Under the pieces are notes generated by a model. The model was not told where the DNA came from. It did not search any database and saw only the letters and a list, made by a program, of their open reading frames with translations. A program made the position numbers and the translations under genes. A stretch of DNA of 64,000 nucleotides from the IMG/VR virus record IMGVR_UViG_3300021354_000007, positions 1 through 64,000 of that record. One strand, given 5' to 3'. This document shows, one piece after another, positions 26,055-36,412 of the stretch; position 1 is the first letter of the stretch; each line of letters begins with the position of its first letter. The stretch comes from a virus.

Positions 26055-26068
26055 TAAGGGAATAAAAC

Positions 26069-26839
26069 ATGGCGCGTAAACCAAGAATTGTTGACACACA
26101 TTTTGAGGACACCATGCAATATAAACAACCTCCAAATGAAAAGGTTATACAAGGTGCTTCTAATAGACTGAAAATGCGTCTAGAAGACCTAAAGACGTTC
26201 ACACCTCTTACCGATAACCAGAAGTTATTTTTTGAATCATATAAAGTAGGCGAATACTTTATGATGCTCAGCGGATCCGCTGGTACTGGTAAATCTTTCA
26301 TTGCTTTGTATAAGGCATTAGAAGAAGTGATGGATAAGGGCAATTCTTTCAACCAAGTTTTGATTGTCCGTTCAGCAGTACAGACAAGAGATGTTGGTTT
26401 TTTGAAAGGTTCACTTGAAGAGAAGACTTCGGTATATGAATTACCATATGAACAAATAGCAGATACTCTATTTGGTAAAAAGGGAGCTTATGGAAGACTT
26501 AAGGAACAAGGATACATTGAATTTATAACAACTACGGCAATACGTGGAATTTCTATAGATAATTCCGTCGTCATTGTTGACGAATGCCAAAATATGACCT
26601 GGGGCGAGTTATCTACTGTAATAACTCGTATTGGGCATAATTCAAAAGTTATATTCATAGGTGATACTAAACAAAATGATTTAACTAAAAAGTCTAATGA
26701 GATATCTGGTATGTCAGATTTTTTATTAGTTGCTAACAGTATGAAAGAATTCTGTCGTATTAATTTTACACCAGAAGATATTGTTAGATCAAGTTTAGTT
26801 AAATCTTGGATTATTGCTTGCGAAAAAAAAGGGTTTTAA
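26069..26839 (+). CDS. phoH: PhoH-like ATPase
   Basis: 256 residues. Walker A GSAGTGKS at residues 69-76, then RSAVQTRDVGFLKGSLEEK, Walker B VVIVDECQN near residue 170, and a GDTKQND sensor, all in PhoH order. PhoH proteins are nucleotide-binding, proposed to act on RNA; they are a frequent marker in phages of aquatic bacteria. Its last 45 bases overlap the 3' end of the convergent endonuclease gene. Confidence 0.9.
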   Translation: MARKPRIVDTHFEDTMQYKQPPNEKVIQGASNRLKMRLEDLKTFTPLTDNQKLFFESYKVGEYFMMLSGSAGTGKSFIALYKALEEVMDKGNSFNQVLIVRSAVQTRDVGFLKGSLEEKTSVYELPYEQIADTLFGKKGAYGRLKEQGYIEFITTTAIRGISIDNSVVIVDECQNMTWGELSTVITRIGHNSKVIFIGDTKQNDLTKKSNEISGMSDFLLVANSMKEFCRINFTPEDIVRSSLVKSWIIACEKKGF

Positions 26840-33312: not shown

Positions 33313-35451
33313 TTACTGTACAGCGTATCTACTAGTAACATACCTGTTTGAAGTAGTGTCTGGGTTCCTTGTTGGTAGTTTTACTGACGTGTTTTGTACA
33401 GTTTTATTTGATGTATTTACTGTTGGTGATGATACAGAAATATTACCACCAGTGGATTTATTTTCTTTTGCTTCTACATTATCTGCAGACTGTTTATATA
33501 TCTTATCCGAAGATATAGTTTCTCTTGGTTGAGGTATCAAATAATCAACACCAGACTTTGGTTTCTCAAGTAAAGTTGGTGTAACAGTATTAGTTGGTGT
33601 AACAGTTTCATCTTTCCTTTTATCATTATCAGATGATGGTTTATATATCTTATCCGAAGATATAGTTTCTCTTGGTTGAGGTATCAAATAATCAACACCA
33701 GACTTTGGTTTCTCAAGTACAGTTGGTTTCTCAGGTACAGTTGGTGTAACAGTTTCATCTTTCTTTTCACCATTATCAAATACTGATTTATTCCACCAAG
33801 ATTTTTCTTCTTTTACAGGTTCTACTGTAGGTTTAGCATCGGTTGGTTTTGATGGTGATGCAGTATTAGTTGGTGCAACAGTTCCATCTTTCTTTTCACT
33901 ATTATCAGATGATGGTGGATGCGACCAAGATTTTTCTTCTTTTACAGGTTCTACTGTAGGTTTAGCATCGGTTGGTTTTGATGGTTTAACGTTTTCTGGT
34001 GCAGGAGCAGTTTCTTCTTTTTCAGGTGTATCAGATGATGTTTCCTTAGTAGGTGATTCAGATGGTTTAGGTACATCCAAGGGTGGAATTTTCATCGAAT
34101 CAAATGGTGCAATCTTATTCCATTTTTCTATTAAAGAATTTATACCCTCTACTATAGAAATTTGTAAATCAGTAATTATTTTCTTGATTAACTCTATTGG
34201 ATGAAATACCGCCTGAAAGAAATCCTCAATTATTTTTGAGAATGAAAACGAGTCTAACCACTTTGAAGCATCTTCAAACCCAAGTTTTTCAAGTACCCAT
34301 GAGGCAATGTCTTTAATTAAATCAAGAACACCACCAACTAACGAGTCTAAGAATCCTGTAATTGCACCTTCAATGGCGCCCATGATGCCACCTTTATCAT
34401 AACCATCTAATGCACCTTTTACAGTATCCCAAACAGTCATGATGACCAGTAATGGTGTTGCAAGTGTTCCTACAATTTTAGATATAAACTTAACTGCCTT
34501 GGCAAATTTAGAAATACCCTCAAATATAAACTTAACACCATTAGAAAGTGTTTCCAATGGTCCAGACAGTAATGATTTTATCTCTGTAAATGCTTCTTCA
34601 AATGGTTTTGCAAATTTAGTAACGGCATCCTTTAATCCATTGAATACCTTACCTAACATACCTTCACTTGAAAACATTTCTTTGATTGTATTTGATATCT
34701 GACGCAATCCGATGTTCTCAGATATAGCAGTCTTCATTAACTCTATTTCATTAGTGATTGCTGTCTTAATGGATTTAGCAATAGTTTTAAACATACCAAT
34801 GACACTTTCTACTATGGAATCAAAAAACTTACCCATTTTCTCGAATGAGGATAGGATACTTTTCTTAAGAAATTCAGGTGTGAATAACTTTACATTTTCA
34901 ACCCATGCTGTAATAACACCTATAACTGAACCAATTGCCACGGCAAGGCCTTCCAAAAGACCTGAAAGTCCAAAACCTTCTTCTTGTTTAGGTTTAACTT
35001 CTTTCTCTTTCTTTGGAATAGTATTACCTGCAATAGTTTTCAATAATGCAGTTTGTTCTGCATATGCTCTATCGCTTTCTGTCTTATCTTCTTTACTCAT
35101 AGTTAAACTATTAAGCAAAGATTGTCCTATTTTTTCAATATTGGTTAATACATCCAGTTGCTCAACTTGTAAAAGAAATGATTTCAGATCAATATCTTTT
35201 ATTTGCTCAACGTTTGTATTTGTTTTATTTGATACTTCTAATGATTTATCTTCATCTTGCTGAACCTTTCTTTCTTCAGCAAATTGACCAATCTGTATCA
35301 ATCTATCAGTTGTAGCATAGGTTGCAATATTCTTTAAAGTATCTAACTGCTCAGAATGTATTGCATTTGTTTGCTTTAAGGTATCTGCAATTGAGCTCAG
35401 ACTATCTTGTTGTTGTTTTTGTAAAATAGGCTGAATTGATTTCTTTGCCAT
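33313..35451 (-). CDS. Tail tape-measure protein (gp29-like position)
   Basis: 712 residues. Coiled-coil N-terminus (QKQQQDSLSSIADTLKQ), hydrophobic central segments (GLLEGLAVAIGSVIGVITAW, then amphipathic and membrane-like stretches around 330-400), and a Pro/Lys/Thr-rich C-terminal third built from duplicated blocks (two of PTDAKPTVEPVKEEKSW, two of SGVDYLIPQPRETISSDK). This is the pattern of myovirus tape-measure proteins. Last gene of the minus-strand late operon; AGAGG Shine-Dalgarno. Confidence 0.75.
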   Translation of the reverse strand: MAKKSIQPILQKQQQDSLSSIADTLKQTNAIHSEQLDTLKNIATYATTDRLIQIGQFAEERKVQQDEDKSLEVSNKTNTNVEQIKDIDLKSFLLQVEQLDVLTNIEKIGQSLLNSLTMSKEDKTESDRAYAEQTALLKTIAGNTIPKKEKEVKPKQEEGFGLSGLLEGLAVAIGSVIGVITAWVENVKLFTPEFLKKSILSSFEKMGKFFDSIVESVIGMFKTIAKSIKTAITNEIELMKTAISENIGLRQISNTIKEMFSSEGMLGKVFNGLKDAVTKFAKPFEEAFTEIKSLLSGPLETLSNGVKFIFEGISKFAKAVKFISKIVGTLATPLLVIMTVWDTVKGALDGYDKGGIMGAIEGAITGFLDSLVGGVLDLIKDIASWVLEKLGFEDASKWLDSFSFSKIIEDFFQAVFHPIELIKKIITDLQISIVEGINSLIEKWNKIAPFDSMKIPPLDVPKPSESPTKETSSDTPEKEETAPAPENVKPSKPTDAKPTVEPVKEEKSWSHPPSSDNSEKKDGTVAPTNTASPSKPTDAKPTVEPVKEEKSWWNKSVFDNGEKKDETVTPTVPEKPTVLEKPKSGVDYLIPQPRETISSDKIYKPSSDNDKRKDETVTPTNTVTPTLLEKPKSGVDYLIPQPRETISSDKIYKQSADNVEAKENKSTGGNISVSSPTVNTSNKTVQNTSVKLPTRNPDTTSNRYVTSRYAVQ
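33492..33719 (-). repeat. 81-bp exact direct repeat in the tape-measure gene
   Basis: 33492-33572 equals 33639-33719. In frame it duplicates the block SGVDYLIPQPRETISSDK. Being exact, it is recent or maintained by recombination. Confidence 0.88.
33795..33985 (-). repeat. 62-bp exact direct repeat in the tape-measure gene
   Basis: 33795-33856 equals 33924-33985, duplicating PTDAKPTVEPVKEEKSW. The two repeat pairs together form most of the low-complexity C-terminal tail. Confidence 0.88.
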
Positions 35452-35516: not shown

Positions 35517-35702
35517 TCAAACATTTTTTGATTGGAGACGTTGTTTTTCTTCTTCCAAAAAATTTACCAACATTGTAACATATATTTCTTTCTCAAATGG
35601 TATTAAGTTTTCAACCTCAGTCAACGACCACTTATGATATTGCATCAACGCAAAATTCATTTTATAGTAATTCGCAAGTGATTCATTGCTAAGGCATATT
35701 AA
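35517..35702 (-). CDS. Candidate -1 frameshift extension of the gp26-like protein
   Basis: A -1 slip on T8 (35708-35701) moves translation into this frame with no intervening stop: 61 residues, reading ICLSNESLANYYKMNFALMQYH, then KWSLTEVENLIPFEKEIYVTML and a charged end. The full product would be 298 residues. An internal ATG at 35660 would give only 47 residues and has no Shine-Dalgarno. The sequence looks like the C-terminal part of T4-like hub-assembly proteins. Confidence 0.65.
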   Translation of the reverse strand, partial: LICLSNESLANYYKMNFALMQYHKWSLTEVENLIPFEKEIYVTMLVNFLEEEKQRLQSKNV

Positions 35703-36412
35703 AAAAAAGCAGCTAACCCATTTAGTTCTACATGATTATCTGCACTGCATATTGGGCAGGTGTAATCAACTATTTGAGTAAGTTTAGGCATAGTTTCAAA
35801 GAATAATTTGATCTTTGAAAATTGCTCTGAGTTCAAATCATTTAGGAACTCTTCAAGTTCTTTCTTTGGTGTTTCTTTTGCATGATATACAGATGAAGAA
35901 TCGTAAATATAATCGATACAATCAATAACAATATTGAAAATTGTATCAAACTCATTGGTTTTTATATTCTCCAACTTTTTAATTATATTGATTGTTGGGT
36001 ATTTCAACACAATACCAACATCATCAAATAATTCTATCTTAGTTGTATGTTCGGGTTTCTTTTCGACTTGGAGATTAGTTAAATCAAACTTTATATTAAT
36101 CTTTGCATTTTCATCATCACAATGCGTACATTTAAAAGTTAACTCTACTTCTTCGCCAACTGACTTTGATCTAATTTGAGTAAAGATATATTCTAGGTCA
36201 AAGATTGCCAATGTTGTTACATCAATCTTATCGAGAATACAACCTTTAAGAACTTCCTGTAAGGTATTCACCATTACAGCAGAATCTTCACTTTGTTGCG
36301 CCAATAATAATGACTTCTCTTCTTTTACAAGAAATGGTCTATACTTAACTGACTTATTGGTAGATGGTATAGTTAAATTATATATTGGGGTACTGTTCTT
36401 TGGTAATGCCAT
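35699..36412 (-). CDS. 26: gp26/gp51-like baseplate hub assembly protein
   Basis: 237 residues. Begins PIYNLTIPSTNKSVKYRPFLVKEEKSLLLA, typical of the T4_baseplate family, in which gp26 and gp51 help assemble the hub. It has two CxxC pairs (FKCTHC near residue 95 and YTCPIC near residue 222) that could hold zinc. The reading frame stops right after a T8 run (GCT TTT TTT TAA), a classical slippery site with the continuing frame at 35517-35702. It overlaps neither neighbour; the gap to gp16 is one base. Confidence 0.82.
   Translation of the reverse strand: MALPKNSTPIYNLTIPSTNKSVKYRPFLVKEEKSLLLAQQSEDSAVMVNTLQEVLKGCILDKIDVTTLAIFDLEYIFTQIRSKSVGEEVELTFKCTHCDDENAKINIKFDLTNLQVEKKPEHTTKIELFDDVGIVLKYPTINIIKKLENIKTNEFDTIFNIVIDCIDYIYDSSSVYHAKETPKKELEEFLNDLNSEQFSKIKLFFETMPKLTQIVDYTCPICSADNHVELNGLAAFF

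Follow-up and report, generated by a model that had tools for sequence, protein, structure and literature searches.

The gp26-like gene of this virus, a T4-like phage, very probably encodes a tail assembly chaperone in two forms, one short and one long, the long form being made by -1 ribosomal slippage at the 3' end of the gene. The open -1 frame, its conservation as a protein, the conserved slippery site and the collinearity with gp51 of T4 are read directly from the sequences compared.

We infer that slippage takes place, and likewise its rate and the chaperone role of its products. Most ribosomes would stop at a TAA codon and release a short form of 237 aa (gp26, TAC-N), whereas a minority would slip back one base on U_UUU_UUU, where two Phe-tRNAs would re-pair with UUU, to yield a long form of 298 aa (TAC-NC) ending in the C-terminal domain of gp51. 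If the two forms act as gpG/gpGT of lambda do, numerous short copies and a small number of long ones would cover the tape measure protein and bring in subunits of the tail tube. In lambda, the ratio of gpG to gpGT is about 30:1, and the tape measure protein is bound by the G part and the tube protein by the T part (PMC5009743).

The gp26-like locus and its predicted products

The stretch of DNA analysed (64,000 nucleotides, hereafter the window) is part of a 67,946-base IMG/VR virus record. Genes neighbouring the locus are T4-like: small terminase, tail tube, DNA end protector, head closure and tube cap. The gp26-like gene (35699-36412, minus strand) was assigned as the putative short chaperone from its matches to PF12322 (E 1e-61, full length, profile positions 2-218 of 219) and phrog_150 (E 3e-67) and from an AlphaFold model. 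Its 0-frame ends in GCT TTT TTT TAA, with the slippery heptamer U_UUU_UUU at 35702-35708 (minus strand), inside a T8 tract (35701-35708), and the stop codon TAA (35699-35701, minus strand) directly 3' of the heptamer. The slip site of lambda gpG/gpGT is G-rich, while the heptamer of the window is of the U_UUU_UUN type.

A -1 slip on the heptamer (35708-35702) gives FFLICLSNESLANYYKMNFALMQYHKWSLTEVENLIPFEKEIYVTMLVNFLEEEKQRLQSKNV, up to a stop at 35519-35517. The extension (TAC-C, the gp51 C-terminal domain; 35517-35702, minus strand) thus has 61 open codons after the slip, and its fusion to the gp26-like protein is 298 aa long. The sequence-only reading had described the same gene end, T8 tract and heptamer and the same two counts, all of them correctly. 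It had also found that the extension looks like a real protein, which is borne out by a match to phrog_634 ('baseplate hub assembly catalyst', the gp51 family; E 4e-26) and by the substitution pattern given below; what needs correcting is its identity, since it is a C-terminal domain, the one called gp51. The extension also matches the end of phrog_150, weakly.

Judged within the window alone, the junction is only moderately unusual. The 75 called ORFs of the window hold 67 in-frame tandem heptamers, three of which are followed by at least 63 open -1 codons; a heptamer no more than 40 nt from the stop together with an extension of at least 55 codons is found in the gp26-like gene alone. Elsewhere in the window, the ORF at 26068-26839 (plus strand) carries A_AAA_AAA 13 nt before its stop, with about 28 more open -1 codons.

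The AlphaFold model of the gp26-like protein, built on an alignment of the window and viral-contig rows only, has a mean pLDDT of 85.7. The HK97 tail assembly chaperone gave its top two PDB matches among 350,542 chains, though the first of them, 2OB9, is a weak match below usual significance (prob 0.75, E 1.1, TM 0.42 by target length, 63 columns). Among viral models, gp51 of Acinetobacter phage ZZ1 was matched (E 7.6e-6). For the extension by itself, the predicted fold is a helical hairpin (pLDDT 76.6). A sequence search against solved structures returned nothing, and none of the sequence profiles applied recognised lambda gpG/gpGT.

The next gene downstream (33313-35451, minus strand) encodes a putative tape measure protein of 712 aa. 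Its product resembles tape measure proteins only weakly, through several weak matches to tape-measure PHROGs (best E 1.9e-9) in which compositional bias is possible, and no similarity to T4 gp29 was detectable. A long ORF is syntenic with this gene in relatives, where the order of chaperone, extension and long tape-measure-like ORF is kept.

Conservation in relatives and rival explanations

It is the comparison with relatives that is decisive, and it indicates that the slip-site signal is real and deeply conserved and not due to chance. Homologues of gp26 were found in 838 phage records and those of the extension in 588. Among 100 loci found via gp26, 97 have U_UUU_UUN in frame before the gp26 stop (73 UUC, 22 UUU, 1 UUG and 1 UUA), at a distance of 7 or 10 nt from it in 95 of the 97, and complete extensions in these relatives run to 54-66 codons. 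The downstream frame is kept in every relative with enough sequence 3' of gp26. All 80 loci found via the extension alone, a set that shares some contigs with the 100 gp26-anchored loci, have a slip site with the extension in the -1 frame behind it, and that frame reaches only a short way upstream; therefore no in-frame fused copy was seen there, and none occurs among the gp26-anchored loci.

Codon choice at the site agrees with this. The codon preceding Phe-Phe ends in T in 96 of 96 genes (61% expected from their codon use) and the first Phe codon is always TTT (96/96, 69% expected), the 96 sites spanning 94 distinct sequence contexts. Median dN/dS of the extension is 0.29 when it is read in the -1 frame, as against 0.91 and 1.91 for the remaining frames, descriptive values since the sequence pairs are not independent, and variation is highest at third codon positions. 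By these measures the extension evolves as a protein in the -1 frame only.

A different arrangement was observed in gp26 of a Kuttervirus (Ackermannviridae) and two Vibrio phages (L095 2402-3405, L097 2438-3405, L099 2342-3298), which keep an open -1 extension but have A/CUUUUY in place of U_UUU_UUN. Because of this replacement, another slip motif may be in use in these phages.

The long protein could also arise without any shift of the ribosome, if RNA polymerase slipped within the T8 tract, so that some of the mRNAs carried an extra U and gave the long protein by normal translation. T8 is long enough for this and is also present in most of the closest relatives. However, in 72 of 96 relatives, the close L003 and L017 included, the heptamer ends in C (U_UUU_UUC), which makes polymerase slippage ill-suited to them, and the heptamer holds its in-frame phase without exception, something a simple run of T would not require; we consider this explanation very improbable. 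An error at the homopolymer, with one continuous frame as the true gene, is the least credible of the readings considered. Although T8 is error prone in some sequencing chemistries, the arrangement recurs in independent metagenome assemblies and isolate genomes, as T8 or as a T-run followed by C, and therefore is not an assembly slip; the C lies inside the tract in most relatives, and no fused copy turned up in the 100 and 80 loci. The sequence-only reading had itself raised such an error.

Many cyanophage records present the extension as a separate gene (gp51) with an internal ATG start, and it is annotated as a CDS of its own in the records of P-SSM2, Melnitz and Sf-CH8. Against this, the first possible start ranges from codon -17 to codon +33 around the heptamer. 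The -1 frame of the window has no ATG, GTG or TTG before codon 16 counted from the heptamer, which lies past conserved residues, and no ribosome site was found at any ATG of that frame in the window locus, in agreement with the sequence-only reading; gp26, by contrast, has a strong one (-8.7 kcal/mol). Moreover, the extension never occurs without a slip site in the 80 extension-anchored loci. With start positions that are not conserved and no window ATG served by a ribosome site, an independent start appears unlikely, and we give the separate gene hardly any credence, less than polymerase slippage and slightly more than the homopolymer error. Ribosomal slippage on the heptamer remains by far the preferred explanation.

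Candidate stimulators of the slip

In most relatives the heptamer is preceded, at 9 nt, by a Shine-Dalgarno-like GAGG that is conserved among them. At this spot the Glu codon of a Glu-Gly pair is GAG in 54 of 74 loci (24 of 31 after thinning), as against 86 of 363 such pairs elsewhere in the same loci, and the mean anti-SD pairing energy is -7.1 kcal/mol versus -5.4 kcal/mol for synonymous recodings. The window lacks the element (35709-35730), having AATGGG in its place (-3.1), and this is a point against the slippage model. It also counts against the model that, in E. coli, U_UUU_UUU is reported to shift less readily than A_AAA_AAG (PMC5009743).

Downstream, a stem-loop that might act as a stimulator is predicted at 35608-35695 (minus strand, limits approximate), starting about 6 nt after the heptamer; the region 35600-35700 of the window has an MFE z of -3.5. 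Taken singly, the downstream sequences fold better than shuffles (mean z -1.5, 36 of 95 below -2), and the stem of the window shows some covariation, above that of shuffles, among 15 close relatives. The consensus fold, however, contains two pairs only and does not support the stem. As both arms also encode conserved residues, a conserved downstream RNA structure was not accepted and the stem is kept as a candidate only.

A possible reading, which we put forward tentatively and consider somewhat less probable than its opposite, is that the -1 signal of T4-like phages has two parts, as in dnaX, with GAGG exactly 9 nt before U_UUU_UUN, and that some lineages, including that of the window, lost GAGG and rely on the downstream stem and the adjacent stop.

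Relation to T4 gp26 and gp51 and to known systems

In T4 the two forms seem to be supplied by separate genes. T4 gp26 matches the short-form profile with 79.5 bits, and T4 gp51 (249 aa) matches the fusion profile across the junction with 37.0 bits, the best of 3000 shuffles reaching 16.9. With the profile of the N part alone, gp51 scores 17.6 bits, poorly set apart from shuffles (16.8), and the profile of the C part matches gp51 residues 200-243 with 19.2 bits (best shuffle 9.2). A direct match was found between T4 gp26 and T4 gp51 as well. By these profile scores the predicted fusion and T4 gp51 are collinear, the latter representing an in-frame fused counterpart of the former, and the short form of the tail assembly chaperone would therefore be gp26 and the long form gp26-51. 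T4 gp26 thus resembles the short form and T4 gp51 the whole fusion; T4 carries them as two genes on opposite strands and needs no slip, whereas the phage of the window has one slip-site locus.

The sequence-only reading had suggested aligning homologues to look for an in-frame fusion; the downstream frame proved conserved in them, and the fused counterpart is T4 gp51. Its further proposal, that T4-like hub assembly uses a -1 slip, is supported as to the slip, but gp26 is better regarded as a chaperone of tail assembly than as a structural part of the hub.

The locus resembles lambda gpG/gpGT (Xu, Hendrix and Duda 2004) in its predicted short chaperone, with a -1 slip near the 3' end, and in its C-terminal extension; the gene downstream, in lambda that of the tape measure protein, is a putative tape measure gene in the window. 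For T4-like phages, the idea of a frameshifted chaperone comes from Vladimirov, Gautam and Davidson (2022; Virology 566:9-15), as cited in PMC10885494 and PMC12846349, the latter in connection with poly-T slip sites of TAC-N genes in T4-like phages. As far as the citing papers convey that work, the mechanism is not new, having been predicted for the T4-like group in 2022, and because the locus matches it, it adds one case to a known system. Common to both, on the same accounts, are the gene family, its place and a poly-T slippery site at the 3' end of the short form; the window differs in being a new phage contig, with the stop directly after the heptamer and no SD-like element. The abstract by Vladimirov and co-workers is said to describe frameshifting as conserved in several T4-like groups and T4 as having separate genes 26 and 51. 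Our additions are small: the SD-like GAGG in most relatives and the stem predicted 6 nt downstream in the contig of the window.

Sullivan et al. (2010; PMC3037559), in their passage on gp51, note that gp51 of cyanophages has only about 20% of the length it has in other T4-like phages and leave this without explanation there; it would be short because gp51 in cyanophages would be the frameshift extension of gp26. In relatives, the extension is called as a separate 'baseplate hub assembly catalyst' with varying starts, or omitted (L087 3016-3189, L086 3064-3207, L101 2564-2695, L083 and L084 after 3013). None of the annotated records examined bears a frameshift annotation, gp51 being separate or absent in them.

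Across the whole family, the comparison bears out that in cyanophages and their relatives gp26 and 'gp51' belong to a single, very probably frameshifted chaperone locus, which is wrongly annotated either as two genes or as a gene with a gap behind it, and the practical value of this result lies in better annotation. The locus also offers an easy system for studying how the proportion of the two chaperone forms depends on the slippery site, the SD-like element and RNA structure.
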